IMG/VR virus record: IMGVR_UViG_3300042556_001597
Span: 1-25,044 of that record
Strand: one strand, 5' to 3'
Length of the DNA: 25,044 nucleotides
Source: a virus
In this document: positions 8,827-24,009 of the stretch, in pieces
Numbering within the stretch: the stretch's first letter is position 1
Layout: each line of letters begins with the position of its first letter
The notes under the pieces: generated by a model
The model's input: only the letters and a program-made list of their open reading frames with translations
Database searches by the model: none
What the model was told of the DNA's origin: nothing
Made by a program: the position numbers and the translations under genes

Positions 8827-9240
8827 TTATTTTTTCATTACTAAAAGTTCATACTCCTCTGCCAGTGTTTTCACTGCACTAAAAAAAGTAGTTTTATCCC
8901 TTACCGCAATTTTTGATATGTAGGTGGACATAACCAAACCTGCAGCCTGGTCACCAATATACATTTCATACAGCCCATCTCTATTTGGTTTTCTTTCAAC
9001 CCATATTTCAAATTGGTATTTCCTATATTCCAATACTATAATATACTTCGGACTTGTTGCATTTCCACAAAATTGTGCTATAGTTTTAATACTAAAATAA
9101 TTTGTTACTGCTAGTCCTTCTAGGGTTTCTCTTATATTTTTTATTGTTATCATATTATTCCGATTATGCATTGTCTGTGCTTGTTTCATTGCATCTTTTG
9201 CATTCTTTATACTCATTTGTCTTAAATAATCACTATCCAT
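8827..9240 (-). CDS. Member of the small beta-rich paralogous family, 137 aa
   Basis: From residue 30 it reads MITIKNI, then strands with YIIVLEYRKYQFEIWVERK and GLYEMYI, and a final helix (TTFFSAVKTLAEEYELL). This is the same layout as the genes at 9242, 9632, 11009, 13761 and 23689, which begin MLNIKN, MLTIQN, MKLTIQN or similar. The first 29 residues are an additional helix. The internal ATG at 9153 has the favoured context AATAATATG and may be the true or a second start. The long frame starts one base after the upstream stop, so I keep 9240. Function unknown. Confidence 0.65.
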   Translation of the reverse strand: MDSDYLRQMSIKNAKDAMKQAQTMHNRNNMITIKNIRETLEGLAVTNYFSIKTIAQFCGNATSPKYIIVLEYRKYQFEIWVERKPNRDGLYEMYIGDQAAGLVMSTYISKIAVRDKTTFFSAVKTLAEEYELLVMKK

Positions 9241-9241
9241 A

Positions 9242-9556
9242 CTAACATACTTTTTTTAATTTTTCTACAAATGTTTTCAAATGTTTTATATCCTCTATTG
9301 TTATGTGTATTGTCCCAGATGGGCCTTTCAATTCATACATTCCTGTTCGTACCTGTGTTTGTATATTCCACATTGCGTTCGTTGCGTCCTTTTCTAAACT
9401 AATTGTAGTGGATGCAATACCACCCGTTCTTTCTAATTGAAATATATAATAGTCTTTACCATTATCACCTACATAATTTTTATATATGTGTGTTATTGTC
9501 CAATCGTTTATTGGTATGTGGTGTCTTACTATATCTACATTTTTTATATTTAACAT
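9242..9556 (-). CDS. Member of the small beta-rich paralogous family, 104 aa
   Basis: It starts MLNIKNV, continues with strands (TITHIYKNY, DYYIFQLERTGGIASTTISL, AMWNIQTQV, MYELKGPSGTIHITI) and ends with a helix DIKHLKTFVEKLKKV. The segment YYIFQLE to MYELKGPSGTIHITIEDI aligns with YQYKFEL to YKLQSSTGNTLYITLLDI of the neighbour at 9632, so the two are tandem duplicates. ATG 9556 abuts the G-rich element copy 2. Function unknown; a small binding protein is plausible. Confidence 0.7.
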   Translation of the reverse strand: MLNIKNVDIVRHHIPINDWTITHIYKNYVGDNGKDYYIFQLERTGGIASTTISLEKDATNAMWNIQTQVRTGMYELKGPSGTIHITIEDIKHLKTFVEKLKKVC

Positions 9557-9606
9557 ACTATCAAAAAATTTTTCCTTAAACGACTCACCCCCAACCCCCG
9601 CCCCTT
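9556..9606 (-). promoter_or_regulatory. G-rich intergenic element, copy 2
   Basis: On the minus strand it contains AAGGGGCGGGGGTTGGGGG, then TTTTTTGATAGTATG, in which the last ATG is the start of the gene at 9242-9556. Three long G runs in a row could form a quadruplex. It matches copy 1 (8768-8815) at both ends with a diverged middle. Confidence 0.45.
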
Positions 9607-9631
9607 CGGTTCGTGGTTTGTTGGTTTCGTA

Positions 9632-9937
9632 TTAACCTAATGCAACTAATCTTAATTTGTCAATGAATATATCCATATTACGAATATCCAATAGGGTTAT
9701 ATAAAGTGTATTTCCGGTACTACTTTGTAATTTGTATGTATTGGTATTCCATTCATCCCTATTCAATGTAACCGTTATTGCATATTTCATATTAGATAAT
9801 TCAAATTTGTATTGATATTCACTTGCAGTATAATTTATATTATCAATACTAAATTGTTCCTCAACTCTTGCAACATAAAAGTTTTTCTTGCCTAATGTTT
9901 TATGGTTTAACTTATTTAAGTTTTGTATTGTCAGCAT
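9632..9937 (-). CDS. Member of the small beta-rich paralogous family, 101 aa
   Basis: It begins MLTIQNLNKL and has the family layout: a long strand pair around YQYKFELSNMKYAITVTL, then NTYKLQSSTGNTLYITL, then helix DIRNMDIFIDKLRLVAL. It is closest to the gene at 9242. ATG 9937 overlaps no neighbour and lies three bases after the upstream stop. No catalytic residue pattern is conserved among the members, which argues for a binding rather than enzymatic role. Confidence 0.7.
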   Translation of the reverse strand: MLTIQNLNKLNHKTLGKKNFYVARVEEQFSIDNINYTASEYQYKFELSNMKYAITVTLNRDEWNTNTYKLQSSTGNTLYITLLDIRNMDIFIDKLRLVALG

Positions 9938-9940
9938 ATA

Positions 9941-10159
9941 CTATCCTTTTATTTCAAATTCTTTATTGTAGATATTATTTTCTTTTATCCATTCAATTGC
10001 ATAGTTTATACCTATTCCCTTTTGATACATTCCTGCATCTTCTATTTTAGAACCTTTGGACATTAATTCATCTGCTAATCCTTGTAATTGATTTAATGAT
10101 ATTCTCTCTATTGTTATAAACTCTTTAAAATCCCCTATCAATTGATTTGTCTTGTCCAT
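9941..10159 (-). CDS. Small helical protein, 72 aa
   Basis: The product looks all-helical: KTNQLIGDFKEFITIERISL, LNQLQGLADELMSKG, then GINYAIEWIKENNIYNKEF. The mixture of charged and hydrophobic residues suggests a soluble helical bundle. ATG 10159 lies 22 bases inside the upstream gene, so the pair is probably translationally coupled. Function unknown. Confidence 0.6.
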   Translation of the reverse strand: MDKTNQLIGDFKEFITIERISLNQLQGLADELMSKGSKIEDAGMYQKGIGINYAIEWIKENNIYNKEFEIKG

Positions 10160-10659
10160 AATCCGTTTATTAATTTATAATGCTTAATTCGTTTTAATCC
10201 TATTGTGTAAGGTATTGTTATAAAACTACTTTCTCGTTCACTCCATTGTTTTAATAGTGTACTATCTATATTGATATTATCTTTATATTCCTTTATTAGT
10301 CTCCAGTCATACCAAAGCAATTCGTTTAAATCATTATTAAGAAACTGAATATAGTCTACATACCAATCTTTGTACTTATTGTGCCTGTCCTTATTGTTTT
10401 TATCTTTGTATGTGTCCAATTCACTCCAATATTTTATTTTGCGGTAAGGTATTCTAAAATGATTATGTTTTTCGAATCTGTCCATTCCGTAATTAATCAT
10501 TTCAATATCACATCCTCTTTTGTATAGATTGACTTCTAAATCCAAATCATATTCACCACCCAACTCAATTGCTCGCCAATTCATTTCCTCTAAAAATTCC
10601 TTTGCAACTTCCCTATCCTTTGTATCGTTATGTGAAAGTGCTTCTAATCTATTTACCAT
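10138..10659 (-). CDS. Hypothetical protein, 173 aa
   Basis: I choose ATG 10659 (MVNRLEALSHND) because it overlaps the stop of the tiny membrane gene upstream by 11 bases. A start at 10704 would add 15 residues and overlap that gene fully. The protein is rich in Trp, Tyr, Lys and Asp (KIKYWSELDTYKDKNNKDR, LLWYDWRLIKEYK). No known motif is visible. It is one of the larger unknowns in this stretch. Confidence 0.6.
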   Translation of the reverse strand: MVNRLEALSHNDTKDREVAKEFLEEMNWRAIELGGEYDLDLEVNLYKRGCDIEMINYGMDRFEKHNHFRIPYRKIKYWSELDTYKDKNNKDRHNKYKDWYVDYIQFLNNDLNELLWYDWRLIKEYKDNINIDSTLLKQWSERESSFITIPYTIGLKRIKHYKLINGLWTRQIN

Positions 10660-10726
10660 TTCGTTTATTTTTAATATAGTCAAATAACCATAATACATAT
10701 GCAATCATTATAAACACTACATACAT
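10649..10726 (-). CDS. Tiny membrane protein, 25 aa
   Basis: ATG 10726, TAG 10649. The first 15 residues (MYVVFIMIAYVLWLF) are hydrophobic and the end (DYIKNKRNGK) is basic, so it would be a single membrane helix with the C-terminus in the cytoplasm. The stop codon overlaps the next start region (ATGGTAAATAG), the arrangement common here. It is small enough that chance cannot be excluded. Confidence 0.4.
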   Translation of the reverse strand: MYVVFIMIAYVLWLFDYIKNKRNGK

Positions 10727-10746
10727 TATTGTTTTATTCTCATACA

Positions 10747-10998
10747 TTATTTTTCCATTTCATTTTCAAATGCTTCCATTGCTCTTTTTACATTATCCAT
10801 TTCAGGTGTGTCAATTTTATCACCAGTTGAAACGAAACCGATTGTAAGTATTGCAAAGACAATTCCAATACTAAATTCCACAATCCTTTCACTATGGAAA
10901 TTTCCATCTTCAATAGTAATTCCGTTATGTGTAGTTATTTGCAATCCTAATAGGGTTTCTCTTTTACTAAATACACTAAATCCTAATTCTATTTTCAT
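10747..10998 (-). CDS. Small membrane protein, 83 aa
   Basis: ATG 10998 in the context AAATAATATG. The N-terminal half is polar (SKRETLLGLQITTHNG), a transmembrane helix follows at about residues 41-57 (EFSIGIVFAILTIGFVSTG), and the end is an acidic helix (MDNVKRAMEAFENEMEK). Topology is therefore probably one pass. No family recognised. Confidence 0.65.
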   Translation of the reverse strand: MKIELGFSVFSKRETLLGLQITTHNGITIEDGNFHSERIVEFSIGIVFAILTIGFVSTGDKIDTPEMDNVKRAMEAFENEMEK

Positions 10999-11008
10999 AT
11001 TATTTGTT

Positions 11009-11356
11009 TTAAAATGGGTTATTGAAATTTATATTACCCTGTGTTTGCTGTGCTTTTGGTTTACATTTTACTATCAATGATTCAAATATCATTGCAGTTA
11101 ATTCAAATGATTTCAATTTTCTATGTTGTATCCATTCTCTACAATATTGTGTCATATCCATTCCATCCCTTAACACTATTTCATATTCATTTGCAATTGT
11201 TCCCTCTCTAAATATTTTTATTATGTAAGGTGTCTTATTATATGCAATAGTAAAAGAATACAATAAAGTAGTTTCATATACGGCACCTATTCTAAAATCT
11301 TTATAATCATGTTCCCAATTTTCTAATTTCTTATAATTCTGTATTGTCAATTTCAT
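11009..11356 (-). CDS. Diverged member of the small beta-rich paralogous family, 115 aa
   Basis: It begins MKLTIQNYKKL like the others, then has YSFTIAYNKTPYIIKIF and NEYEIVLRDG in the places of the family strands, and a helix at the end. The C-terminal segment (VKCKPKAQQTQGNINFNNPF) is additional and disordered-looking. ATG 11356 lies inside the end of the 51-codon gene (26-base overlap). Function unknown. Confidence 0.65.
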   Translation of the reverse strand: MKLTIQNYKKLENWEHDYKDFRIGAVYETTLLYSFTIAYNKTPYIIKIFREGTIANEYEIVLRDGMDMTQYCREWIQHRKLKSFELTAMIFESLIVKCKPKAQQTQGNINFNNPF

Positions 11357-11486
11357 ATACTAAATAGTTTTGTTCTTTATGTGTACCAACTCTTGTAGGT
11401 TTTTGTTTTAATAAACTATCATTTGACAATTCAATATTATTTTTAACAATCATTTCAATTGTTCTCTGCATGTATATTACTTTCAT
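11331..11486 (-). CDS. Small protein, 51 aa
   Basis: ATG 11486, TAA 11331. The product begins with MKVIYMQRTIEMIVKNN and continues with a polar stretch (LLKQKPTRVGTHKEQN) and a possible strand (YLVYEI). It fills the gap between its neighbours and overlaps the next gene's start by 26 bases. No homology is recognised. Confidence 0.5.
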   Translation of the reverse strand: MKVIYMQRTIEMIVKNNIELSNDSLLKQKPTRVGTHKEQNYLVYEIDNTEL

Positions 11487-11495
11487 AGTCAATTT

Positions 11496-11774
11496 TTAAT
11501 AATGTAAATCTAAATAAAGACATCCTTCACCATCGGTTTCATTAAGATAATGGCACACACTCCACACAGGTGTGTATTCACAATCAAATTCTTTATACAT
11601 TGGATTAGGTTTTTTAATCGTTTCCCACCCATGTTTTTCATAATACACATCTTCAACTCTTTGTGAAACTACTAATGTATCATCGGAATATTTTTCCAAT
11701 TCCTCTTTTAACTTACCCACCGTAAGATAAAATCCTTTTTTATGGATATCTATTATTTGTTTATTTGTTTTCAT
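11496..11774 (-). CDS. Phage hypothetical protein with LTVGxLxEEL motif, 92 aa
   Basis: Near residue 17 it reads LTVGKLKEELEKYSDDTLVV, a segment I know from many small phage and prophage proteins of unknown function (LTVGELIxxLxxxPxDxxV). After it comes a variable part with several aromatic residues and the end GCLYLDLHY, a probable strand. The ATG at 11774 overlaps the upstream stop (ATGA), so translation is coupled. No activity is known to me. Confidence 0.75.
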   Translation of the reverse strand: MKTNKQIIDIHKKGFYLTVGKLKEELEKYSDDTLVVSQRVEDVYYEKHGWETIKKPNPMYKEFDCEYTPVWSVCHYLNETDGEGCLYLDLHY

Positions 11775-12115
11775 TTGACTTCAATACTTTTAATTATTGT
11801 TTTACTAATTGGAAAATGTGCTAATATTACTCTTTGTCTATATCCCCTTTCATCCAATTTGTATGTATAAAAATAATATGTCCCACAATCACTATATTCA
11901 TATCCTCTTGCATCTAATACATAGGGTAATGCTATACCACCACTAATTACATCCATACAATATGTTTTAATTGGATGTTCATTTTCCCATCTTTCTTGTT
12001 CATTCAATCGTTGTGCCAATTCGTAATTGTTTCTTTTTATTCTTTCTAAATCATCTATTTGTTCTAATGCTTCCATTGACTTAGCAACTGGAAAAAATAT
12101 ATCTTTTATACCCAT
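11771..12115 (-). CDS. Hypothetical protein, 114 aa
   Basis: A helical N-terminal half with coiled-coil character (ALEQIDDLERIKRNNYELAQ) is followed by a beta-rich half with TYCMDVISGGIALPYVLDA and YYFYTYKLDERGYRQRVIL. Start ATG 12115; the end overlaps the next start by four bases. No known family. Confidence 0.6.
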   Translation of the reverse strand: MGIKDIFFPVAKSMEALEQIDDLERIKRNNYELAQRLNEQERWENEHPIKTYCMDVISGGIALPYVLDARGYEYSDCGTYYFYTYKLDERGYRQRVILAHFPISKTIIKSIEVK

Positions 12116-12116
12116 A

Positions 12117-12281
12117 TTACTTATTTTTTATTACTTTATAATTCAAATACATACTAACTCCAATTAGGATAATACCGATACCACCCAAACCAGGTGCATC
12201 ATCTATTTCACCAAACACTATTGCCATTCCACCTACTGTTGAACCTATATTTGTTGCCCATCCGTTTAAATACTTTAACAT
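12117..12281 (-). CDS. Small glycine-rich membrane protein, 54 aa
   Basis: ATG 12281 in the context AAATAATATG, TAA 12117. The product has two hydrophobic, glycine-rich stretches (IGSTVGGMAIVF and GLGGIGIILIGVSMYL) separated by an acidic turn (GEIDDAP), suggesting a helical hairpin in the membrane, and a basic end (NYKVIKNK). It sits one base after the reductase gene. Function unknown. Confidence 0.6.
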   Translation of the reverse strand: MLKYLNGWATNIGSTVGGMAIVFGEIDDAPGLGGIGIILIGVSMYLNYKVIKNK

Positions 12282-12282
12282 A

Positions 12283-12855
12283 TTATTTATTTTTTAAATC
12301 GTTTCTAATATCCTCCTTTACTTTTTCCAAATATACCAATCTTTCATTATGTGAAACAAAAGGTACACTCCAAAATTGTCTAGTCTTTGTTTTAAACCAA
12401 CCAAATACAAATGAATATACCCCCATAACCAACCTCAATTTAACTGAATTAAAATACATTGTTAATACAGGTAATGCAGGTGCTCCATGTGTCAAATAAG
12501 TTCTAACTTTTTTATCACTCAATAAAGGCGTTGGATATCCATACACTTTTGTAACGGGTGTAAACTTATATGCAAACCCCGGTGTAAATATTTGGTCAAA
12601 GAATGCCTCCATTGCGGGTGTGCATCTAAACCACCAAACGGGAGATATAAAATAAATTCTATCTGCCCATGTTATTAACTCTTTGTATCTTTTTATTTTA
12701 TCCTTTCCAAAATCAAATGTTATATTTTCTTTATACAAATCAATTGTATGTGTTTCCTCTTTGTTTTGTTTTAAAGTTTCTTCAATAGTTTTTTTAATAC
12801 CATTGTAGCAGAAACTCTTTTTGTCAGGGTGTCCTATTATTATTAGGTTTTTCAT
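12283..12855 (-). CDS. Flavodoxin-fold NAD(P)H quinone-reductase-like protein, 190 aa
   Basis: The first strand and phosphate loop read NLIIIGHPDKKSF (3-15), the hallmark of the NQO1/MdaB/KefF-type flavodoxin fold (GHPxxxSF). A second conserved region, ADRIYFISPVWWFRCTPAM, matches the xxPVxWxxxPAxxKxxxD segment around the flavin, followed by FFDQIFTPGFAY. FMN or FAD binding and two-electron quinone or azo reduction are expected. The length fits the family. ATG 12855 shares one base with the UVDE stop (TAATG), so the two are made together. It is rare in phages; a protective role against redox stress is inference. Confidence 0.85.
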   Translation of the reverse strand: MKNLIIIGHPDKKSFCYNGIKKTIEETLKQNKEETHTIDLYKENITFDFGKDKIKRYKELITWADRIYFISPVWWFRCTPAMEAFFDQIFTPGFAYKFTPVTKVYGYPTPLLSDKKVRTYLTHGAPALPVLTMYFNSVKLRLVMGVYSFVFGWFKTKTRQFWSVPFVSHNERLVYLEKVKEDIRNDLKNK

Positions 12856-13724
12856 TATATAAAATTTATTATTGCTAAATCTTTTTGTTTTGCTTCTACC
12901 ATTATATCAATTTCACATCCATAAGTTTTTGGAATAGTTTTAATATAGTCCGAATGAGCTTGTGGTTTTTTACCTATCGCACTTTCGGAATAGTGTACTT
13001 CTGGAGTAATATTATCAGGCCATGTAGTACATGCAAGTTTCAATGCATTCTCCTCACTCAAATCACCTGTGCAAAATTGGTGGTGGTGATAATCAAATAC
13101 AATCGGTATGTTAATCTTATTATGAATATACATTAAGTCTTTAACTGAATACATACTTGCCTTGTCATCATTTTCAATTGTTAGTCTAGTCTTTACTGAA
13201 TTAGATAGTCTGGCAAAGTTAGTACAAAATCTATCCATTGCTGCAATCTTGTCACCGTACACTCCGTTACAATGAATGTTAATATTATTGTAAGGTGTTT
13301 TAGATAAGTCCATTGCGTCCATAATTCTACCGTGCACTTCTAAATCTTTAATTGTATTGAGTACGACATTTTCTTTTGGTGAAACTAATACATTAAAAGG
13401 TCCTGGGTGAAATGATAATCTTTGTTTATACTTTGTTGCTTTTGCACCACATCTTTGTAGTATTGTATGTATTGCTTTCCAATCTTTTAATTGTTCAAAT
13501 TCATATTCAGTTGCCCACGGAAACATCTCGCTACTCATACGATACATTTTAATTCCGTTTTCCTCATTCCAATCTATAATCTTTTCGAGGTCTGCAACAT
13601 TCTGCAATACCAAATCCGATACATAGTCAATACCCTTTGCTGTGAAAGTTCGTTTGACCATTGTCCTGTTCGTTGTAACTTTTTTACCTAATGAAAGGTT
13701 AATACATGCATATCCTATATTCAT
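12855..13724 (-). CDS. uvsE: UV-damage endonuclease, UVDE/UvsE family
   Basis: The N-terminus MNIGYACINLSL, with TTNRTM and then a segment near KIIDWNEENGIKMYRMSSEM, is diagnostic of UVDE, a TIM-barrel enzyme. It nicks DNA 5' of pyrimidine dimers and other lesions using metal ions. Further family blocks are RLSFHPGPF, INIHCNGVYGDK, LTIENDD and IVFDYHHHQF, which supply His, Asp and Glu metal ligands. The length of 289 residues is normal. I take ATG 13724 because promoter P2 overlaps the frame upstream of it; a GTG at 13751 would lie inside the promoter. The transcript would be almost leaderless. It is coupled to the reductase gene downstream. Confidence 0.93.
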   Translation of the reverse strand: MNIGYACINLSLGKKVTTNRTMVKRTFTAKGIDYVSDLVLQNVADLEKIIDWNEENGIKMYRMSSEMFPWATEYEFEQLKDWKAIHTILQRCGAKATKYKQRLSFHPGPFNVLVSPKENVVLNTIKDLEVHGRIMDAMDLSKTPYNNINIHCNGVYGDKIAAMDRFCTNFARLSNSVKTRLTIENDDKASMYSVKDLMYIHNKINIPIVFDYHHHQFCTGDLSEENALKLACTTWPDNITPEVHYSESAIGKKPQAHSDYIKTIPKTYGCEIDIMVEAKQKDLAIINFI

Positions 13725-13729
13725 ATACT

Positions 13730-13760
13730 CAATATACGAAAAATATTTCACTTTACCAAA
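13730..13760 (-). promoter_or_regulatory. Promoter P2 for uvsE and the reductase
   Basis: The minus strand reads TTTGGTAAA, 12 bases, TCGTATATTG. The left and right parts match P1 (3940-3970) in 19 consecutive bases. TATATT ends six or seven bases upstream of the ATG at 13724, so the mRNA should have almost no leader. Confidence 0.75.
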
Positions 13761-14030
13761 TTAAACAGTATGCATACAAATCACAATCTTATCTATTGTG
13801 TCAATTTCGTTTTTGTTTAACCAAATAGTTTGATTATTGTATTCCATTACATACATTCCATTTTCGGTTTGTTTTCTATGTAGTAATATCGTTTCGTAAT
13901 TTGGTTTACCTATATTTGTATAACCCAATGTAAATTCGTAGTGATGTGTGTGTTCTTTAACTCCAATAATATTAAACACATCATTATATTTTTCACCTAT
14001 TATCTTTTGTGGGTTTTTAATTGTTAACAT
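13761..14030 (-). CDS. Member of the small beta-rich paralogous family, 89 aa
   Basis: It opens MLTIKNPQKIIG and has the family strands YEFTLGYTN and YETILLHRKQTENGMYVMEY. It ends with TIWLNKNEIDTIDKIVICM, a strand and a helix. Compared with the others it is shorter. The gene ends at the edge of promoter P2, so its transcript stops or runs through into the uvsE operon. Function unknown. Confidence 0.65.
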   Translation of the reverse strand: MLTIKNPQKIIGEKYNDVFNIIGVKEHTHHYEFTLGYTNIGKPNYETILLHRKQTENGMYVMEYNNQTIWLNKNEIDTIDKIVICMHTV

Positions 14031-14034
14031 AATT

Positions 14035-14502
14035 TTAACCAGATTTTGTTGATTGAATTATTGACATTAACTGCATTACACTATTGTTCAGTTGTGTCAT
14101 TTGTTGAGTGATTTGAATTAATCCTTCTAATATTTTTAGATAATTATATTCGGTTTCTCTTATTTGATATTGTATTAAATATATTTTTTGGTTTATATCG
14201 TATATTTGTTGGTTTATCAAATAAATCATTTCAGTCAAACTTGTAACATTTTTGTTGGTTATTTTTAATTGACTTTGTAATGAATCGGTTTGTTTCTTTA
14301 AACTATCAGTTTGTGCTTTGAATTCTTTTAATTGTTGAGTCAAAACATTTATATCATTTGCATACTTTGTATCGGTTTTTTTCAATAATTCTATTTCCGC
14401 TTTTAACTTTTCAATATCAGATTGATAATCTATTTGTTTTTTGCAAGATGTAAATATTAATAAAATTGAAAATATTAATATTGTATTTTTAATTGTCATC
14501 AT
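14035..14502 (-). CDS. Lipoprotein with long coiled coil, 155 aa
   Basis: The signal peptide MTIKNTILIFSILLIFTSC ends in a lipobox (FTSC, Cys20), so it would be a lipid-anchored envelope protein. The mature part from residue 25 on is one long coiled coil (IEKLKAEIELLKKTD, LKKQTDSLQSQLKI, YDINQKIYLIQYQIRE). Two ATG codons in a row stand at 14502 and 14499. An outer-membrane lipoprotein with a coiled coil could be a spanin-type lysis protein or an exclusion protein. No direct evidence separates these. Confidence 0.75.
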   Translation of the reverse strand: MMTIKNTILIFSILLIFTSCKKQIDYQSDIEKLKAEIELLKKTDTKYANDINVLTQQLKEFKAQTDSLKKQTDSLQSQLKITNKNVTSLTEMIYLINQQIYDINQKIYLIQYQIRETEYNYLKILEGLIQITQQMTQLNNSVMQLMSIIQSTKSG

Positions 14503-14506
14503 AATT

Positions 14507-14767
14507 TTACCATTTACTTAGTGGACATTTACTTTGAGGACTTAAAGTCTTTGCTGATATATTACATCCACATCCTTTTGTTTCTTGTTTTGTTATTTCG
14601 TTTATTCCAACATTTTTAGGACTACAAGTATTTCCTATTCTCATATGACATGAATTACATAATATCAATCTATTCTCTGCCATTTGTTTTATATTCGGGT
14701 CTAATGTTCCTATTTTATCTTTTACTACATTTGCCCATCCATTTATTATTTCATTTAACTTTGACAT
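14507..14767 (-). CDS. Cysteine-rich zinc-binding phage protein, 86 aa
   Basis: The C-terminal half has ILCNSCHMRIGNTCSPK, then GCGCNISAKT, then KCPLSKW. This order of CxxC, a further Cys, CxC and CPLxKW at the very end is one I recognise from small proteins in large tailed phages, with no known function. The seven cysteines probably hold one or two zinc ions. The N-terminal half is a helix (EIINGWANVVKDKIG). Start ATG 14767 with the context AAATAATATG. Confidence 0.75.
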   Translation of the reverse strand: MSKLNEIINGWANVVKDKIGTLDPNIKQMAENRLILCNSCHMRIGNTCSPKNVGINEITKQETKGCGCNISAKTLSPQSKCPLSKW

Positions 14768-14780
14768 ATTATTTAGTTAA

Positions 14781-15239
14781 TTATTTTTTAAATTGTGCAT
14801 TTATATCTTGTATGACTTGTATCATTTGTGCATATGGTATTGTAGTTCCACTATTGTTTACATGATTGAATATTCCACCAACTGACTGACTACTATACAT
14901 TGGTGCAGATGTTAATCTTATACTTAAAATTCTATCTACCAATTGTTCAAATGTTTGTCTAAAATGTGAAATAGACTTCATTGCTTGGATATCCATTTTA
15001 GTACGAGTATTTAATCTATTCTCATCCCATAACATAACATCAAATAAATGGTCATCGGCTAATTTCCATTTGTATCCAGGAGTCAATACTTCCAATTCCC
15101 ACTTTGGTTTTTGTCCGACTTGGTTTAAATCCAATATGGTGGCTTCGTATTTTGTTTCCTCTGCATTATGTATCGGATTAACTATTGTATAACCTTTGTA
15201 TGTATATCCACTTATTTTTTCCCAACCTTTAATTTTCAT
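14781..15239 (-). CDS. Hypothetical protein, 152 aa
   Basis: ATG 15239 (MKIKGWEKISGY) is preferred: it forms a TAATG overlap with the upstream stop, whereas the longer frame needs a TTG. The first half is beta-rich (YTYKGYTIVNPI, YEATILDL, PKWELEVLTPGYKWKL), which could be a distant relative of the small paralogous family. The second half is helical (MDIQAMKSISHFRQTFEQLVD) with a polar end. Function unknown. Confidence 0.65.
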   Translation of the reverse strand: MKIKGWEKISGYTYKGYTIVNPIHNAEETKYEATILDLNQVGQKPKWELEVLTPGYKWKLADDHLFDVMLWDENRLNTRTKMDIQAMKSISHFRQTFEQLVDRILSIRLTSAPMYSSQSVGGIFNHVNNSGTTIPYAQMIQVIQDINAQFKK

Positions 15240-15457
15240 TATTTGCCACTTTTTTCTCTTATCCAATTATACATAAAATTTATATCTTCTTTGTCATTTT
15301 CTTTTTGAGACTCTAATTCATGTCCAACACATGGTGGTATTCTTTTATCTATTTCCCGGTCATCTGGTAAATTATTTATCTGCTTTAACATATTTACAAC
15401 TCCAAATATCGTGAATGTTACCATGAATACTAATACAATTGATACCAATAATTCCAT
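15239..15457 (-). CDS. Small membrane protein, 72 aa
   Basis: The N-terminal helix is a membrane segment (LLVSIVLVFMVTFTIFGVV) with almost no residues before it. The remaining 50 residues are polar and charged (KQINNLPDDREIDKR, QKENDKEDINF) with one Cys. A type II or signal-anchor topology is probable. ATG 15457; coupled downstream by TAATG. Function unknown. Confidence 0.65.
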   Translation of the reverse strand: MELLVSIVLVFMVTFTIFGVVNMLKQINNLPDDREIDKRIPPCVGHELESQKENDKEDINFMYNWIREKSGK

Positions 15458-15460
15458 AAC

Positions 15461-15649: not shown

Positions 15650-15652
15650 TAT

Positions 15653-16043: not shown

Positions 16044-16535
16044 TTATTTTTTTATTCTACCTGCACCTTTATATGCTAATTTATATTTTGGTTCTAATAA
16101 ACTACTAATCTTCACTCCTTCATATCGGTTTGCTGAATGGACAAACATTGTTTCACCTATATAAGTTCCACAATGCCAACCGGACGGAGATTGTCTACTT
16201 CTAAAAAATACCAAATCACCGACTGTTAAACTATCTCTTGAAACTCTTTGTGTACTATCCCATTGTCTATAACATACATTTTCTATTTCAATTTTATAGA
16301 CATCTTTTGCTAATCGTTTATTGAATTGTGAACAATCAATACCCCTTTCAGTTTTGCCTCCTAACTTGTAGGGTTTACCCAACCAATGATATACAAAGTT
16401 ATTCAATGTAGTGTCTAATGTAACGAATGGAATTGAGTCCAATTTTGGCAATTCTTTTTTAGTTTGAGAATGTACAAATGTCGGTAGTATAACTACTAAT
16501 ATTGTAATAAAAATAAACTTGTTTATTGTTTTCAT
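16044..16535 (-). CDS. Secreted NlpC/P60-family cysteine peptidase, 163 aa
   Basis: A signal peptide (KFIFITILVVILPTFVHSQ, cleavage near residue 23) precedes one NlpC/P60 domain. Catalytic residues are seen as Cys68 in ERGIDCSQF, His121 in WHCGTYIG and His133 in FVHSAN. The strand LTVGDLVFF before His121 is typical. The enzyme would cut peptide stems of peptidoglycan in the periplasm. The length fits a single-domain enzyme. A phage copy with an export signal could be a lysis enzyme, or could protect or remodel the wall during infection. It has its own near-leaderless promoter (16540-16570) and is first in an operon of small proteins. Confidence 0.88.
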   Translation of the reverse strand: MKTINKFIFITILVVILPTFVHSQTKKELPKLDSIPFVTLDTTLNNFVYHWLGKPYKLGGKTERGIDCSQFNKRLAKDVYKIEIENVCYRQWDSTQRVSRDSLTVGDLVFFRSRQSPSGWHCGTYIGETMFVHSANRYEGVKISSLLEPKYKLAYKGAGRIKK

Positions 16536-17276: not shown

Positions 17277-17290
17277 TTGTTTTGTTTTAA

Positions 17291-18272: not shown

Positions 18273-18274
18273 AA

Positions 18275-19540
18275 TTACTGTTTAATGAATTTAACACCAT
18301 TCCATTCCCATCTATTTTTTTCTCTTTTGTCTCCTGAGAATAAATCCAATTTGCCATTTTTGTCAATATCTTGAACTCTCATATGTGCAAATTTATTACA
18401 TTTGTTATTGTCAATATAAATTGATGTTTTATCTATAAAAGATTTTCCACTATCTTCGGATTTAAATAAATGTATAGAAAATACACCAAATTGGTCTTGA
18501 TTTGATAATAATATTTCAAAAACATTATCATTATCTATATTCATAAAATCTATATTAATAATAGTGTTATTATCACCCATTACCCATTCCGTTTTTCTAT
18601 TTAAATTGAAATTTTTTCCATTACCCCATAATATCATAATATTCGTAGAACGATTGTCAGTTGGTGTAGATGTTGGTTTGCTATATTTTAAAGCTAAATC
18701 TAAAAATCCATCTTTATTAATATCAAATAATTCGGATTGACTTACAAATGGTATAGTGCCGATTCCGGTTGTATCGGATTTAAAATTTCCCGAACCATCG
18801 TTTACTAAAACGACACTTTTAACTCCATTACCTATTGGTGGTATTTGATGAAAGTTAAACATAATAATATCAATATCACCATCATTGTCGATATCACCCG
18901 AACAACTAGTATACCAATATCCCTTCATTTCATCAAATTCTTTTATTTTATTAAATCCTGTTTTTGAATTTAAAATAAGATGTGATACATCAGTCATAGT
19001 TGGAAATGGTACACCATTTGGTTGGTCTATTGCAACCGAACCAAATACATCGGGTAAAGAATCATTATTAAAATCTCCAATTAATACTTTTGATGCATGT
19101 GGATTTTTAATAGATAAATTACTCAATACCTTTCTATTTAACTTAGAACCATCATTTAAATAAATGACAGCGGGTGGGTTAGGTGTTGGATTTATTTTCA
19201 AATCATATCCATCGTATGCAAATATATCTTCATCACCATCATTATCAAAATCTAATTGACAAGATTGTTGTTCATTTAAGGGATTATTTGATTTATATGG
19301 TAAACCATTTTCATAAATTAAATTTCCGTCTAACCATTCATAGTAATTTGATAATTCATATGATGTTTTACCAAAATAGTAATTTTTCGGTAATTTTCCA
19401 CTTTGTGTATTTACCGGTGGAATTGGTTGTGTAACCACATCTTCTATTCCTCTTTTTGGAAATAGAATATACGCTCCAGGTGCTACTTTCTCACATCCGA
19501 ATAGTGTGATTATTGTTATTATCAGCAATAAATTCTTCAT
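18275..19540 (-). CDS. FG-GAP/VCBS-repeat lipoprotein, 421 aa
   Basis: A signal peptide with lipobox (ITLFGC, Cys16) is followed by a repetitive beta-propeller-like domain. Asp/Asn-rich loops of the DxDxDGxxD type appear at about 97-105 (DFDNDGDED), 156-164 (DFNNDSLPD), 216-224 (DIDNDGDID), 273-281 (DINKDGFLD), 335-343 (NIDNDNVFE) and 391-399 (DIDKNGKLD). These bind calcium in FG-GAP/VCBS proteins, which work as extracellular adhesion or recognition modules. About six or seven blades fit one full propeller. Such a protein is common in Bacteroidota cells and unusual in a phage operon of tiny genes. It may come from a host. ATG 19540; its role here is unknown. Confidence 0.85.
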   Translation of the reverse strand: MKNLLLIITIITLFGCEKVAPGAYILFPKRGIEDVVTQPIPPVNTQSGKLPKNYYFGKTSYELSNYYEWLDGNLIYENGLPYKSNNPLNEQQSCQLDFDNDGDEDIFAYDGYDLKINPTPNPPAVIYLNDGSKLNRKVLSNLSIKNPHASKVLIGDFNNDSLPDVFGSVAIDQPNGVPFPTMTDVSHLILNSKTGFNKIKEFDEMKGYWYTSCSGDIDNDGDIDIIMFNFHQIPPIGNGVKSVVLVNDGSGNFKSDTTGIGTIPFVSQSELFDINKDGFLDLALKYSKPTSTPTDNRSTNIMILWGNGKNFNLNRKTEWVMGDNNTIINIDFMNIDNDNVFEILLSNQDQFGVFSIHLFKSEDSGKSFIDKTSIYIDNNKCNKFAHMRVQDIDKNGKLDLFSGDKREKNRWEWNGVKFIKQ

Positions 19541-19697
19541 ATTCTTTTATTTTACTTTCTAAGAAATCCATAGCATTACTATCACCCGTCCAACTGTCAT
19601 ACTTTCTAAATCGTTTGACAAATGTTTCTAAATCAACTGAATTATAATATTCAATCAATTCATTATAGTTAGGTATATAGCAATTATTGAATCCCAT
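19491..19697 (-). CDS. Small hypothetical protein, 68 aa
   Basis: The product has a polar N-terminus with several Asn and Tyr residues (NNCYIPNYNELIEYYNS) and a helical, acidic end (SKIKEYEEFIADNNNN). ATG 19697 shares its last base with the acidic gene upstream. The last 50 bases overlap the start of the lipoprotein gene, the longest overlap around here, so its real end should be viewed with care. Confidence 0.5.
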   Translation of the reverse strand: MGFNNCYIPNYNELIEYYNSVDLETFVKRFRKYDSWTGDSNAMDFLESKIKEYEEFIADNNNNHTIRM

Positions 19698-20308
19698 TAT
19701 TTAGATTTCTTTTTTTGTTTTGCAGATAATGTTTTCAATACCTTTTTATATCTTTCGTTTGCAGCTTTTAAGTTTTCATTTGCTTCCCACTCATCACCAT
19801 CAAACAAATTCTCTTCATCTTCTGGTTCATCACCCCATTCAAAAGTAACTCTATCCTCTGAAACTCTCATACCATAATCATCAAATTCATCTTCATCTTC
19901 TTCAGTTGCTCTATAATGCAATCCTTCGTTTCCGTTTTGACCAATTATATCCATTCTTTTTTCATCAATATTAAAGTTTCCAAAGAAATCATTTTCTAAT
20001 TCCTCACGATTTTCGTATCCATGTCTTAGATTTGTAAACTCTTCATCTTTTTTGAAATCTTCATATGTGAATGTTTCTTCCCACTTTTCATTTTCTTCTT
20101 CCTGGTATTCATTTGCTCTATCTAATATCCATTGTTTCCAACTATTACTATGATAACCCAAACCAATTACAATGGTTTCAAATGCATCCATTATTTCATC
20201 CAATTCGGTATCACTGTGGTCTATTTGAACTGAAATTTTTGTTCCATATTGTTCACCCGTAATGGTTGTTGGTTTATCAAATCCCTTTTTGTAGTTAGTA
20301 AAGTTCAT
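19697..20308 (-). CDS. Very acidic protein, 203 aa
   Basis: Nearly a third of the residues are Asp or Glu, especially from residue 70 on (YQEEENEKWEETFTYEDF, ATEEDEDEFDDYGM, DEPEDEENLFDGDEW), while the last 20 residues are basic (KVLKTLSAKQKKKSK). The first 50 residues contain possible strands (KISVQIDHSD). Strong acidity can mean DNA mimicry or binding to a basic partner, but no fold is recognised. Start ATG 20308 with the context AAATAATATG. Confidence 0.65.
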   Translation of the reverse strand: MNFTNYKKGFDKPTTITGEQYGTKISVQIDHSDTELDEIMDAFETIVIGLGYHSNSWKQWILDRANEYQEEENEKWEETFTYEDFKKDEEFTNLRHGYENREELENDFFGNFNIDEKRMDIIGQNGNEGLHYRATEEDEDEFDDYGMRVSEDRVTFEWGDEPEDEENLFDGDEWEANENLKAANERYKKVLKTLSAKQKKKSK

Positions 20309-20309
20309 A

Positions 20310-20567
20310 TTATTTGTATTTGTTTTTTATAAATTTTTCAATACCTTCTTTTTCATTTTCTTCTGCAATCTTCTTTACACTTTCATAATCAAATTCAGTA
20401 TTAGAAATTGCAGAACTAATACTTGCAAATTTTTTAGTTTTGTAAGAACTCAAAGGAGTAGTATATTGTTTTAAATATTCTGCTTTTGCATCTAAATATT
20501 CGAACAATTCAGTATCACTCATTCCTTTTAATTCTTCATCAGTCTTGTTGAAATTCATCGTCATCAT
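20310..20567 (-). CDS. Hypothetical protein, 85 aa
   Basis: Several ATG codons stand near the start. The one at 20567 (MMTMNFNKTDEELKGM) overlaps the upstream gene by 29 bases, while ATG 20615 would overlap it by 77. I prefer 20567 or the ATG at 20558. The product is helical (DTELFEYLDAKAEYLKQY, ESVKKIAEENEKEG) with a basic tail (FIKNKYK). Function unknown. Confidence 0.55.
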   Translation of the reverse strand: MMTMNFNKTDEELKGMSDTELFEYLDAKAEYLKQYTTPLSSYKTKKFASISSAISNTEFDYESVKKIAEENEKEGIEKFIKNKYK

Positions 20568-20889
20568 CTTTTTCCCATTGATAATCTTTGTTTGCTGAAT
20601 ATAGTATTTCACCATCTTCGTTTACACTCATATTAAGTGCACCCTTATCTACTAAACTTTCAATTGTGTTTGCAATCTCATTGTTAGAAACATTTTGACA
20701 AACATCTAAAAATTCCTCATCAGTCAAAAAGATATCCTCTTCTTGTTCCCACTTTTGTTGCATTCTAATTTGTAACGCTCTCTTTAAAGGGATTTGTTCT
20801 ATGAAAGGATTTTCCAAAAAGAAATCACTTTCTTCTAAAGAATCCATTATTTGGTTTGATACTTCGATTATTTCACTAAGAATGTCCAT
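20539..20889 (-). CDS. Acidic helical protein, 116 aa
   Basis: Asp and Glu dominate at both ends (MDILSEIIEVSNQIMDSLEE and WEKDDDDEFQQD). The centre (EEFLDVCQNVSNNEIANTIES, VDKGALNMSVNEDGEILYS) looks like a winged helix: helix, helix, helix, then a hairpin. This is a pattern reading, as no sequence family is recognised. ATG 20889 overlaps the upstream gene by 14 bases. Confidence 0.6.
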   Translation of the reverse strand: MDILSEIIEVSNQIMDSLEESDFFLENPFIEQIPLKRALQIRMQQKWEQEEDIFLTDEEFLDVCQNVSNNEIANTIESLVDKGALNMSVNEDGEILYSANKDYQWEKDDDDEFQQD

Positions 20890-21133
20890 CTTGTTTTATT
20901 TGTTTAAAGTTTTCTGCCTCTTCTTCGGGTGTTGGCAGATAACTTGATTTATAATATTCATCATCATATTCCATATCATCTGGAAATATAGAATGACTTT
21001 GTACACTTTTCCATTGCCAATATTCTTCATTCATTTTTTCTTGTGCAAGATATTGTTCGTATAAAAAATCTTCATCACCACCAATTGAACCCGTTGATAA
21101 TTCCTTATTAAATTGATTATTCATTTTGCTCAT
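20876..21133 (-). CDS. Acidic protein, 85 aa
   Basis: The protein has many Glu, Asp, Gln and Tyr residues (GGDEDFLYEQYLAQEKM, PDDMEYDDEYYKSSYL, TPEEEAENF) and probably little fixed structure outside a central helix. It is the first gene after a small AT-rich gap (21134-21173) and may start a transcript; a TAGTATATTTAA stretch in that gap is a weak promoter candidate. Function unknown. Confidence 0.55.
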   Translation of the reverse strand: MSKMNNQFNKELSTGSIGGDEDFLYEQYLAQEKMNEEYWQWKSVQSHSIFPDDMEYDDEYYKSSYLPTPEEEAENFKQIKQDGHS

Positions 21134-21173
21134 AATTGTTATTTTATATTATTAAATATACTAAAATTATTTG

Positions 21174-21740
21174 TTATTTCAAAATAATCTTTTCCACTTT
21201 CACTACATCAGCATATCGTGCAACTATTGTCATTGTATCACCTCTCATATTCCACATTGGTGCTATGACAGTATTGATACTACCATCGGCGGAATTATAA
21301 CATACCTTATTGATTGTAGGTACTAATGCGTTTACATTACTTATCATTGGTGGTAATTTAACTACCGTAAACTGACCCGTATAATAGTTCAAATAGGTTT
21401 TTGTTATTATAGCAATCGTATCACCTTTAACTAAGTTCCAATATAAATTGTTTTCCCATTCAACTTTTACACGAGGTTCATCGGGTATCTTACCATTGAT
21501 ACGAATAGAACCTGATATAGTGTGTATGTTTTGGGTTTCGGATGAATACAATTTGAAATAAGAATACCCATTACTATCTTTTGGTAGACGGGTATCAATA
21601 CTCATTTCAATATTTCTATTTGGTTGTAAAAATCCTTCTTTACTACAACCGATAAGTGTTGTTGCTAACAATAAAGCAAATATACATAAAACTAATATAA
21701 AACTAATTCTTGCTTGTTTTTCCGTTCCTTTTCCTTGCAT
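21174..21740 (-). CDS. Lipoprotein of unknown function, 188 aa
   Basis: ATG 21740 (MQGKGTEKQARISF) lies just after the upstream stop and gives a classic signal peptide (ISFILVLCIFALLLATTLIGC) with Cys32 as lipidation site. The mature part is beta-rich (YSYFKLYSSETQNIHTISGS, TITKTYLNYYTGQFTVVKL, TMTIVARYADVVKVEKI). A longer frame to 21812 would bury the signal peptide and overlap the SWIM gene, so it is rejected. It is one of three or four lipoproteins in the window. Confidence 0.75.
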   Translation of the reverse strand: MQGKGTEKQARISFILVLCIFALLLATTLIGCSKEGFLQPNRNIEMSIDTRLPKDSNGYSYFKLYSSETQNIHTISGSIRINGKIPDEPRVKVEWENNLYWNLVKGDTIAIITKTYLNYYTGQFTVVKLPPMISNVNALVPTINKVCYNSADGSINTVIAPMWNMRGDTMTIVARYADVVKVEKIILK

Positions 21741-21741
21741 T

Positions 21742-22335
21742 TTATTTTGTTTTAGCTTCTCTAATGTGTTTACATTCTTTTCCACCTGTGTATGTATAAG
21801 ATGGACAATCACATTCCCAACTTCCGTTATCGTTTTTTACTTTATATGTAACATTTGGGTCTTTTGATGAAGGCATCGTAAATTCTTTCACTTCACTTAA
21901 TCCTTTCTCTTTAAGTTTTCTTTCAATTAAAGAGTCAACTTGACTATCCGATATCCAAGTTGCTCTATTCTTTCTAAACTCCGTAAAGAAATAAGAGTCA
22001 TCACAAAGTGCATCTAATACTTTTATTGATATATCTTCACCTTCCGCCTGACAAATTTCATATAAAGTTTGTTCAGGTTCTTTTACAAACTTACCCGTAT
22101 CGGCGTAATCACCAGCAATAACAATGTTATCACCTGCCCAACTACCTACGATATCATTTGTACTATGTAAGTCTCCACCACCTCTACCATTTCCGTCAGC
22201 AAGTAATATTGCCAAACCGGCTAATACACCATTTGCGGACATACTAAATTCCATCAACTTTGCACCATCACCAAATGTGTAAGGTGTTATGTATTGTTTC
22301 TTTTTGATATTTACTATCTTATAATATTGTCCCAT
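21742..22335 (-). CDS. GQYY-domain protein with C-terminal SWIM zinc finger, 197 aa
   Basis: The first ~115 residues begin MGQYYKIVNIKKKQYI and include GAKLMEF, GRGGGDL, GSWAGDNIVIAGDYAD, a domain I know from many bacterial and phage proteins of unknown role. The end contains a SWIM-type zinc finger: WECDCPSY, then GKECKHI, with Cys175, Cys177, Cys188 and His190. SWIM fingers bind DNA or protein. The partial gene at the right edge ends in the same finger. ATG 22335. Fusion of both domains suggests a regulator or adaptor. Confidence 0.75.
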   Translation of the reverse strand: MGQYYKIVNIKKKQYITPYTFGDGAKLMEFSMSANGVLAGLAILLADGNGRGGGDLHSTNDIVGSWAGDNIVIAGDYADTGKFVKEPEQTLYEICQAEGEDISIKVLDALCDDSYFFTEFRKNRATWISDSQVDSLIERKLKEKGLSEVKEFTMPSSKDPNVTYKVKNDNGSWECDCPSYTYTGGKECKHIREAKTK

Positions 22336-22337
22336 GA

Positions 22338-22541
22338 TTATTTCTTTTTTCTTTTGTCATATCCAATTGGATAATAATATTGTTCATCTAGTCTAATTGA
22401 ATGTACTTTGAAACCATTATCTTCATCAATTATTTCTATTGCTTTATCTGGATTAGTTCCCCATACTAAACCATCTAATAAAATACGACCATCGTCTAAT
22501 TTTTTAAATTCGTTCATTTGTGTTTGAATTGTCTTTGCCAT
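22338..22541 (-). CDS. Small hypothetical protein, 67 aa
   Basis: The product is beta-rich (GRILLDGLVWG, KAIEIIDEDNGFKVHSIRLD) with an aromatic-basic end (YYYPIGYDKRKKK). ATG 22541 follows a 22-base gap. The stop lies two bases before the next start. No motif is recognised. Confidence 0.6.
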   Translation of the reverse strand: MAKTIQTQMNEFKKLDDGRILLDGLVWGTNPDKAIEIIDEDNGFKVHSIRLDEQYYYPIGYDKRKKK

Positions 22542-22563
22542 ACTATTTGTTTTTGTTTTATTA

Positions 22564-22920
22564 TTAAAATTTAATTACTCCCATTGCCATACCTAATGAT
22601 AATTCATATCTATCGTAGAATTTAACTTTGTTTTTCACTTCGTCAATATCTACTTTACAATCTACACTCTCACCCTCATCATCACATCCCATAATTAATC
22701 CGTTACCAGCGAATGGTTGATGTGCACCTTCAAATGTAAAAAATACATCCGTTCCGTTCATCAATCCTTCATCATCTACAAATATAGCATCTTCTTTATC
22801 CAAATATGCACCAATTGTAAATAATTCACACTCTAATTGTTTATAGATTTCTCTATAATCTTTTCCCATTTCAACTTCTTTTACTTCTTTTGTCTTTGAG
22901 TTAATTAATATCGCTTTCAT
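22564..22920 (-). CDS. DUF3846-like protein, 118 aa
   Basis: The start MKAILINSKTKEVKEVEMG and the following DYREIYKQL, AIFVDDEGLMN and FAGNGLIMGCDDEGESVDC fit the small DUF3846 family, found in phages, prophages and plasmids. The layout is a strand, a helix and the GNGLIMG turn. The function of the family is not known to me. ATG 22920; three bases before the next gene upstream. Assignment by sequence pattern only. Confidence 0.7.
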   Translation of the reverse strand: MKAILINSKTKEVKEVEMGKDYREIYKQLECELFTIGAYLDKEDAIFVDDEGLMNGTDVFFTFEGAHQPFAGNGLIMGCDDEGESVDCKVDIDEVKNKVKFYDRYELSLGMAMGVIKF

Positions 22921-22923
22921 AAT

Positions 22924-23334
22924 TTATAATTTATATATTTTTACTTTTTTCAATTTTGTTTGTTTATCATTATGTCCAACCAATATATCAATTCGTTTTC
23001 TATATCGTTTGTTCATTAAATCATGCACCCTATAAGTTCCGTTGTATTTTCCTGCACCTGTTATTCTAATCTTTTGTCCGAATTTGTATTTCTTTTTAAG
23101 GTCTCTACTAACTGCAATTATTCTATGTTTTTTGGGATTAGTAATTTTGAAACCACTTGCCGTAATATTTGGTGTTGAGTCCGTTTCACTCTCACTTGCT
23201 TTGTATGTAGTTAGTGTAACAATTTCAGGTGTTATTGTTTCTATCATTTTGTTTACCCTAATTTCCTCTTTCTCCATTTCATAAGGTAAACATATCAATA
23301 CTATTGAAAGTATTATATTGTAATTCATAATCAT
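22924..23334 (-). CDS. 3D-domain protein (cell-wall-active fold), 136 aa
   Basis: The three aspartates that name the 3D domain are visible: Asp52 in ESETDSTPNITASG, Asp105 in YRVHDLMNKR and Asp116 in KRIDILV. The strands RIIAVSRDL and KIRITGAG fit the double-psi barrel of MltA/RlpA-like lytic transglycosylases. It would act on peptidoglycan if active. The N-terminus (MNYNIILSIVLICLP) is hydrophobic and may be a short export signal. The start is at 23334 or the ATG two codons later. Together with the NlpC/P60 gene this makes two wall-related enzymes. Confidence 0.75.
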   Translation of the reverse strand: MIMNYNIILSIVLICLPYEMEKEEIRVNKMIETITPEIVTLTTYKASESETDSTPNITASGFKITNPKKHRIIAVSRDLKKKYKFGQKIRITGAGKYNGTYRVHDLMNKRYRKRIDILVGHNDKQTKLKKVKIYKL

Positions 23335-23339
23335 AACTT

Positions 23340-23687
23340 TTAATTTGCAAATTTCATTAAACTAATTGACTTTGCTATAAACTTACCCATATTAATAACA
23401 AATGTATCTTTTGTTTTTACCATATCAGTAGTTAATAAATTGTCTTGAAAGATATACTCACCCGTATCACCCTCACCCAATACACATTTTTTCATACTGA
23501 AACAATTATGTTCCCATTTCAATTCAAATTTCACACAATAATCACCTAAAATTGGGCCGTTACAAAATACCCATACCCAATTACTTTCTTTTTTATTTTG
23601 TAGATTGTCCACATCAAAATAAAACGGATACCCCTCCAATTCAAAATCCACTCTATCTATTTTTTCAAAATTTTCTGGTCGTTTCAT
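23340..23687 (-). CDS. Hypothetical beta-rich protein, 115 aa
   Basis: The product has several strands rich in aromatic residues (DFELEGYPFYFDVDNL, NWVWVFCNG, YCVKFELKWEHN) and a helix at the end (MGKFIAKSISLMKF). The order is similar to the small paralogous family and its neighbour at 23689, but it lacks the MxTIxN start, so membership is uncertain. ATG 23687 with the context AAATAATATG. Confidence 0.6.
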   Translation of the reverse strand: MKRPENFEKIDRVDFELEGYPFYFDVDNLQNKKESNWVWVFCNGPILGDYCVKFELKWEHNCFSMKKCVLGEGDTGEYIFQDNLLTTDMVKTKDTFVINMGKFIAKSISLMKFAN

Positions 23688-23688
23688 A

Positions 23689-24009
23689 TTATTTATTTTT
23701 ATTGTCTATATAATCACTTTGCATTTGTTTTATTCTCACTATTTGCTGACAAAATATTCGTATGTCTTTAATGTAATGAATTGGTAAATGTAATTGCTGA
23801 TTAGAACAATGTAATGTATACCATGCTCCAGCGTTACAATCTTTGTCCAATTCAACATGCCAATCACTACCAATCATTCTAAATCTAAACTGATATTGAT
23901 TACCAATATCTTCTATTCTAACTCCCCACACATTATCACCAATTTGATTTGCTAACATTGTTTCAAACTTGGAAGCTAAATCAGGTGATATTTCAAATTT
24001 TAATTTCAT
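23689..24009 (-). CDS. Member of the small beta-rich paralogous family, 106 aa
   Basis: It begins MKLKFEIS and has YQFRFRMIGSDWHVELDK, AWYTLHCSNQQLHLPI and a final helix DIRIFCQQIVRIKQM. The segment YQFRFRM to IKDIRIF aligns with YQYKFEL to LDIRNMDIF of the gene at 9632, which lies 14 kb away. ATG 24009; the gene sits one base after its neighbour downstream. Function unknown. Confidence 0.65.
   Translation of the reverse strand: MKLKFEISPDLASKFETMLANQIGDNVWGVRIEDIGNQYQFRFRMIGSDWHVELDKDCNAGAWYTLHCSNQQLHLPIHYIKDIRIFCQQIVRIKQMQSDYIDNKNK

Follow-up and report, generated by a model that had tools for sequence, protein, structure and literature searches.

A previously unnamed family of small, mutually diverged proteins in viruses of freshwater bacteria

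Introduction

Large animal viruses carry multigene families, and large arrays of paralogues have already been described in giant phages; the protein family considered here had not been named before. The described arrangement most like it is paralogue family B of phage SPN3US: as set out in the passages of PMC5694885 that deal with it, this family comprises 20 proteins, with 17 encoded consecutively (gps 138–154); all are expected to be head proteins of unknown function, and their number varies between phages. Bacteriophage T4 offers two further points of comparison. Its internal proteins, IPI–IPIII, are small, number several per phage and begin with a functional stretch of ten residues, an N-terminal capsid targeting sequence, and the relevant part of PMC9026906 gives a host-directed role for some of them. 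TifA and Dmd, which counter toxin–antitoxin systems, are small early proteins, and the small counter-defence gene tifA is amplified in tandem under toxIN selection, according to the sections of PMC9391042 concerned. Here, we examine small proteins encoded in a 25,044-base IMG/VR virus record (IMGVR_UViG_3300042556_001597, positions 1–25,044; henceforth, the window), six of which had been proposed in a first-pass annotation, made from the sequence alone, to be scattered members of one paralogous family of beta-rich proteins, with two more, 14781 and 23340, as possible additions. Each protein is named by the first coordinate of its open reading frame (ORF; Table 1).

The six do belong to a single family, unnamed until now, whose small proteins are encoded by viruses of freshwater bacteria. 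In common with SPN3US family B, it comprises a large, variable number of diverged and mostly consecutive paralogues in giant phages; the SPN3US proteins, however, are head proteins by mass spectrometry and come from phages of other hosts (PMC5694885, in the passages cited), and the likeness is one of arrangement, not of sequence comparison. The family shares with TifA and Dmd the small size, but the TifA copies recorded in those sections of PMC9391042 are laboratory amplifications, whereas the copies described here are diverged. The interpretation that we favour, tentatively and somewhat short of an even chance, is that of an old, diversified repertoire of small host-directed binding proteins, counter-defence being one possibility.

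Results

Six small proteins of the window form one family

The coordinates and frames of the annotated ORFs are correct, and all of them lie on the minus strand, as do almost all genes of the window (read from the ORF list). Identity among the named proteins is as low as had been claimed: among the eight sequences, BLASTP shows a clear relationship for one pair only, 9242 and 9632 (expect value, E, 5e-8), and the visual assignment had therefore reached further than plain BLAST. Relatives of 9632 are encoded at eleven IMG/VR loci (51–91% identity). An iterated profile, seeded with the 9632 orthologues only and run over 714 ORFs, converged at 72 ORFs and captures the six window proteins, all at E<=5e-15, with the nearest outsider at 0.013; run over the 3154 ORFs of 15 phage contigs, it converged at 191 family members. 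With this final profile, no reversed and no shuffled ORF was found at E<=0.01.

The check that the annotation had put forward, a profile hidden Markov model built from the six sequences themselves, retrieves 130 family ORFs and no others from the 3154 at E<=1e-3, and 156 family ORFs against one other at E 0.01; its best outsiders are two relatives of 23340 (E 0.01 and 0.064). When each of the six was left out in turn, the missing member came top of the 109 window ORFs in all six cases, with E values from 4e-10 to 0.31, the weakest being those for 11009 (0.2) and 13761 (0.31). Grouping of the ORFs by BLAST gave 165 groups of four or more, 19 of which are family groups and 146 of which are not. 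In leave-one-out comparisons with hhalign, each of the 19 family groups matches the rest of the family with a probability of 91.6–99.1%, 23689 being the most diverged of the six window members (91.6%). Among the 146 other groups, the maximum is 40%, and it is 1.73% for the 143 that are left when three remote candidates are set aside, namely, a zinc-ribbon group (40%), the 14781 group (30.6%) and the 23340 group (28%). Thus, the six are connected by profile beyond chance, and neither differing folds nor profiles that fail to join the proteins, which the annotation had named as grounds for giving up the family, were encountered.

Scans of 62 members against Pfam, NCBIfam, PADLOC and PHROGs found no family that covers these proteins, which argues that they do not belong to a catalytic family. 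Single low-scoring matches were set aside: Pfam FAIM1 in one of the 62 members (16.2 bits, below the curated cut-off of 22), Pfam DUF4825 in two (E 0.0056), PADLOC Cas13a in one (E 0.0045; taken as chance) and seven PHROGs families in one each (best E 0.00075; likewise taken as chance). A sequence search of the PDB gave a best E of 0.38, and a search of the open-access PMC literature, which leaves subscription papers and preprints outside its range, found no paper on the family.

Conserved motifs and predicted fold

The shared motifs noted in the window hold over 180 distinct members: L/I-x-I-x-N (Asn in 96%), Y-x-F/I (Tyr in 97%), I-x-L-x-R/K (98%), Y-x-L/M (Tyr in 90%) and, in the last helix, I...F/L...L/I. 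The R/K of the third motif had been missed, and the start MLTIxN is absent from 23689. Asn6, Tyr43, Arg60 and Tyr68 (9632 numbering) are near-invariant. The most conserved stretch of all is the first ten residues (MLTIKNxxKI).

The model of 9632 has a mean predicted local distance difference test score (pLDDT) of 89.5 and a predicted template modelling score of 0.80, and it runs from helix 7–10 through five strands to helices 82–86 and 88–100. The family domain is predicted to span about 105 residues: a short helix at the N terminus is followed by a sheet of five antiparallel strands, and a helix closes the C terminus. The CapZ and PI31 FP-domain folds also have a five-stranded antiparallel sheet followed by a C-terminal helix, and the predicted layout of the family resembles theirs, with no sequence relation. 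Foldseek returned nothing at E<=1e-3 for the 9632 model against PDB and BFVD, or for the 14781 model against BFVD. The best VIA-align match of the 9632 model is to Mediator (Z 5.7; PI31 FP, Z 3.8) and that of the 14781 model to CapZ (Z 8.6, root mean square deviation 3.6, 103 aligned; PI31 FP, Z 6.9), values that unrelated folds can reach according to the tool's own note; CapZ is absent from the best 50 structural matches listed for 9632. Two other identities were considered and dropped. The PUR, PC4 and whirly folds, which bind single-stranded DNA, combine strands with a C-terminal helix, and among the structural matches listed for 9632 there is one PURA entry, at an undecisive Z of 3.7 over 47 residues; an anti-CRISPR-like or Ugi-like identity has a single weak BFVD match behind it, to Ugi (probability 0.16).

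The conserved start bears on what we consider the strongest rival to host-directed binding, albeit an unlikely one: that the members are internal proteins of the head, which would be packaged with the DNA and ejected along with it, in the manner of SPN3US family B or of the T4 internal proteins. The large consecutive set in SPN3US and the parallel between the ten-residue targeting sequence of T4 and the ten best-conserved residues here both speak for it. The T4 sequence, however, is a propeptide, and there are only three internal proteins, whereas the start of the family domain is part of the predicted fold in the 9632 model and can be internal. It is so in one group of three (MQPTLKQNRITIKN, where a start codon is absent within 8 codons), as well as in the remote forms with a zinc-ribbon-like or membrane segment described below.

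Copy number, arrays and carrier phages

The annotation's remark that one phage segment holds many diverged copies applies with greater force to related contigs. The 15 contigs carry between 5 and 33 copies each: 33 in G013, 22 in each of G014 and G015, 17 in each of G009 and G011, 13 in G016, 10 in each of G002 and G010, 9 in G017, 8 in each of G008 and G012, 6 in each of the window (G000) and G005, and 5 in each of G018 and G019. G014 and G015 are near-identical strains, most contigs are fragments and some were covered in part. Beyond these counts, the profile finds 307 matches at E<=1e-3 in 37 records besides the window (G003 counted once), with at least one match in every one of the 37, of which 23 had been found via the family and 14 only via relatives of 14781.

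Family genes point the same way and often adjoin, the stop codon of one overlapping or touching the start codon of the next (for example, TAATATG); the longest run is of 17 consecutive genes (G015, 29182–34660). Such head-to-tail arrays are what neutral or selfish tandem duplication, yielding copies without distinct functions, would produce. Within a genome, however, copies are about 26% identical (medians 22–27%, maximum 43%), and the duplications must therefore be old, with orthologue groups that persist across phages. Since all copies are old, diverged, open and under purifying selection, and no fewer than 19 groups have been retained across phages, this explanation is already disfavoured, and we regard it as very improbable.

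The carrier phages are large and T4-like and form one clade, probably infecting Bacteroidota. The gene set of the 238-kb contig G012 was read as T4-like, and its terminase is closest to that of Flavobacterium phages immuto (54%), followed by Microcystis phage Mel-JY01 (52%). As the window protein at 3520 reads as a Bacteroidota-like lipoprotein, a Bacteroidota host is likely, judged from the sequence. In G012, the family members lie at 81–107 kb, far from the terminase at 187 kb, which also counts against a role as packaged head proteins. Megablast of the window against phage records gave no match. Cultured phages searched with 9632 gave none either and, with 13761, only an immuto gene at E 9; the family profile, run over the whole of immuto and Mel-JY01, reached best E values of 0.0075 and 0.0057, respectively, with no clear member. 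In bacterial genomes, a search with the 13761 group produced 227 pattern matches and no relatives.

Rate and mode of evolution

The annotation had suggested rapid evolution, and this stands in relative terms. The ratio of nonsynonymous to synonymous substitution rates (dN/dS; median pairwise, 0.1<dS<1.2) was used because per-contig-pair identities of family and other orthologues gave a mixed picture, with many pairs opposite in direction. Its median is 0.456 over the 19 family groups (range 0.20–0.68), compared with 0.247 over 63 other groups of 60–170 residues from the same phages (Mann–Whitney p=2e-4, pairs inside a group not being independent). Since no group has a median above 0.68, there is no gene-wide positive selection; the family evolves under purifying selection. 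Within the 19 orthologue groups, substitutions are far more frequent at exposed strand positions than at buried ones: the mismatch at exposed and buried sites is 0.62 and 0.36 in strand 38–48, 0.43 and 0.26 in strand 53–59, and 0.50 and 0.23 in strand 67–72, and the alternation is slight in the first and last strands. A core that stays fixed beneath an outer face that varies would give this pattern.

Positions 8827–9264 of the window match G010 1275–1712 with 97.3% nucleotide identity over 439 bp, amid surroundings of 70–87%, and the 8827 gene has therefore probably been exchanged alone, a recent transfer of a single small gene between phages as judged by the alignment. Such mosaic exchange, together with the large and variable sets, would also be expected if the proteins served competition between phages, through superinfection exclusion or the blocking of other phages, rather than acting on the host. 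Nothing in the data points specifically to other phages, and the core members start directly with the domain and have no obvious signal peptide (sequences read by eye); we consider this alternative improbable.

Remote members and a possible core-gene relative

Of the two additional members that had been suggested, 14781 is a probable remote member, whereas 23340 remains a candidate with a short C-terminal alignment. HMMER places 14781 outside the family (E 0.48). Its hhalign match, the second best of the 146 other groups, extends over 95 columns and sets MKIKGWEKISG of 14781, where its domain begins (M at 15239) ahead of a C-terminal extension, on MLTIKNixKIxG of the family. An AlphaFold2 model built from 9 sequences has a domain pLDDT of about 71–94 and comprises helix 15–18, five strands, and helices 93–97 and 99–119; it has the element order H-E-E-E-E-E-H-H of the 9632 model (compared by order, not superposition), and the PDB look-alikes common to the two include the PI31 FP domain, Mediator and RsfG. 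Family matches are present in all 33 records that hold a 14781 relative (16 searched together, 14 of them new, and 17 covered by earlier profile searches).

The family profile gives 23340 an E of 0.49 with HMMER. Its group also matches, at hhalign probabilities of 97.9% and 95.7%, those of two window proteins (21742–22335 and 24750–25019) that end in a C-x-C...C-x-H segment, which we take to resemble a SWIM motif; Pfam has no match to the former.

Some 14781 orthologues carry an N-terminal zinc-ribbon-like segment. A search for C-x2-C...D...Y...H-x2-C matched 11 of the 3154 ORFs, and in all 11 the segment lies ahead of a family-like domain start (MKIKGWEKI, LKIxNPEKIN, MQIINWKKIQG or VEISNWDKLVG). 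Forms of this kind occur at L012 2810–3430, L008 5207–5677 and L010 5035–5676, among others, and L010 7894–8277 bears a different, CxxC-CxxC-like extension. In G013_27446, a hydrophobic N-terminal segment precedes GKPLTIQNWDRITGF. The zinc-ribbon and membrane-segment forms are excluded from the 191 members.

The 13761 group, the slowest-evolving of the family (dN/dS 0.20), is the only one that resembles a conserved phage gene near SSB and polymerase genes. This gene, immuto gp002, adjoins DNA polymerase A, with SSB and RecA close by, and has relatives in Mel-JY01 (upstream of RecA), in one metagenomic phage and in G012. Compared with all 165 groups by hhalign, the gp002 gene family matches the 13761 group first (49%; next, 2.4%), and with gp002 as the query phmmer reaches 13761 at 2.7e-4 and then five 13761 orthologues. 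Gp002 occurs in the nearest cultured phage kin and resembles one group in sequence, but it is a single gene of about 140 residues beside SSB and polymerase that the whole-family profile does not reach (1.6% by hhalign, within background). A common origin of the family and this core gene is possible, to judge by these alignments.

If so, the members might be nucleic-acid-binding or replication and transcription accessory proteins. The genomic setting of gp002, the zinc-ribbon-like segments ahead of the domain in remote members and a median isoelectric point (pI) of 8.6 would be in keeping with this. Other small ORFs have the same median pI, however, and the background-level score of the whole-family profile and the 20–30 diverged copies, for which an accessory role offers no explanation, make it rather unlikely.

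Features of the window and neighbouring genes

Table 1. Family members and candidates in the window
Feature	Position	Strand	Basis
Family member 8827	8827..9240	-	E 2e-18 in 191-member profile
Family member 9242	9242..9556	-	profile E 4e-14
Family member 9632, seed sequence and modelled structure	9632..9937	-	profile E 6e-21
Family member 11009	11009..11356	-	profile E 9e-16
Family member 13761	13761..14030	-	profile E 5e-25
14781, probable remote member	14781..15266	-	hhalign and order of secondary-structure elements
23340, candidate, adjoins 23689	23340..23687	-	hhalign 28%, 27 C-terminal columns only
Family member 23689	23689..24009	-	profile E 2e-13

In 8827, a 29-residue N-terminal extension precedes the domain, which begins at M (9153) with MITIKN. 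The C-terminal tail NNPF of 11009, like the NNPF or SNPF tails of the ORFs at L010 5035–5676 and L012 2810–3430, has some likeness to SSB tails.

A promoter-like element, a T-run followed by GATAGTA, stands before genes in 24 sense cases against 1 antisense over the 15 contigs; window sites lie at 8755–8826 and 9557–9631, one of them preceding 9242, and others occur in other contigs. Only 6 of the 24 immediately precede a family gene; the element is therefore not family-specific, and the idea that it is a promoter reserved for the family was rejected. A second promoter-like element was seen as TTTTCGTATATTTA (29 sense, 1 antisense) and TTTTCGTATCTTTA (28 and 4, the counts overlapping).

The accessory region also encodes a UV-damage endonuclease, UvdE (12855–13751; Pfam E 5e-66), kept in several related contigs. 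An HExxH protein like ImmA/IrrE (24013–24456; Pfam M78, E 5e-4, just under the cut-off) adjoins 23689. Elsewhere in the window are a GIY-YIG protein (5179–5496), an FkbM methyltransferase (7120–7737), a flavodoxin-like NAD(P)H reductase (12283–12855) and an NlpC/P60 protein (16044–16535).

Discussion

Given their size, the repertoire-like arrays, fast but constrained evolution and single-gene exchange, host-directed binding proteins fit the family best. It is an old multigene family, in which tandem duplication and divergence gave rise to at least 19 orthologue groups; the subset kept differs from phage to phage and lies in the accessory region, its genes head to tail and closely spaced. One face of the predicted sheet forms a conserved hydrophobic core, and the opposite face and the loops are free to vary. 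Each copy would then be a small single-domain binding module, produced intracellularly, and would engage a host protein or host-derived factor in the course of host takeover or counter-defence, and the set of copies would act as a repertoire. In this scheme, the family, its arrays, the predicted fold, the faster evolution under purifying selection and the mosaic exchange come from the analyses above, and we infer the cytosolic location, the binding through the exposed face, the host targets and the timing.

Several considerations weigh against this interpretation. Neighbouring genes, fusions and fold matches name no target, be it a host-defence or a surface protein as the annotation had suggested, and proteins packaged in the virion or engaged in intraviral complexes could have the same anatomy. 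In none of the 19 family groups does dN/dS reach 1, some non-family genes match the family in rate (highest non-family median 0.72), and exposed sites drift faster than buried ones in any protein, such that neutral drift alone would favour them. Moreover, faster gain and loss of members is not seen: between close phages, turnover resembles that of other small genes, the share with a reciprocal orthologue being 12/16 for the family versus 38/45 for the others in one pair, and 6/13 versus 24/41 and 11/14 versus 24/37 in two more.

A bolder form of the host-directed interpretation, which we hold to be doubtful, would have a conserved scaffold with a diversified exposed sheet face providing a standing repertoire of >30 host-protein binders per genome, possibly descended from a duplicated replication-side core gene and extended by the zinc-ribbon and membrane-anchored forms; it would give phages an equivalent of the multigene families found in large animal viruses. 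Set against a passage in PMC5694885 that cites Kristensen et al., the family is an outlier, with at least 33 diverged copies in the 101-kb contig G013.

The profile built here allows other phages to be checked immediately. If the copies are host-directed binders, each would offer an immediate probe for a defence system or a host factor of Bacteroidota, and the arrays would supply a series of naturally occurring variants of a single small scaffold.

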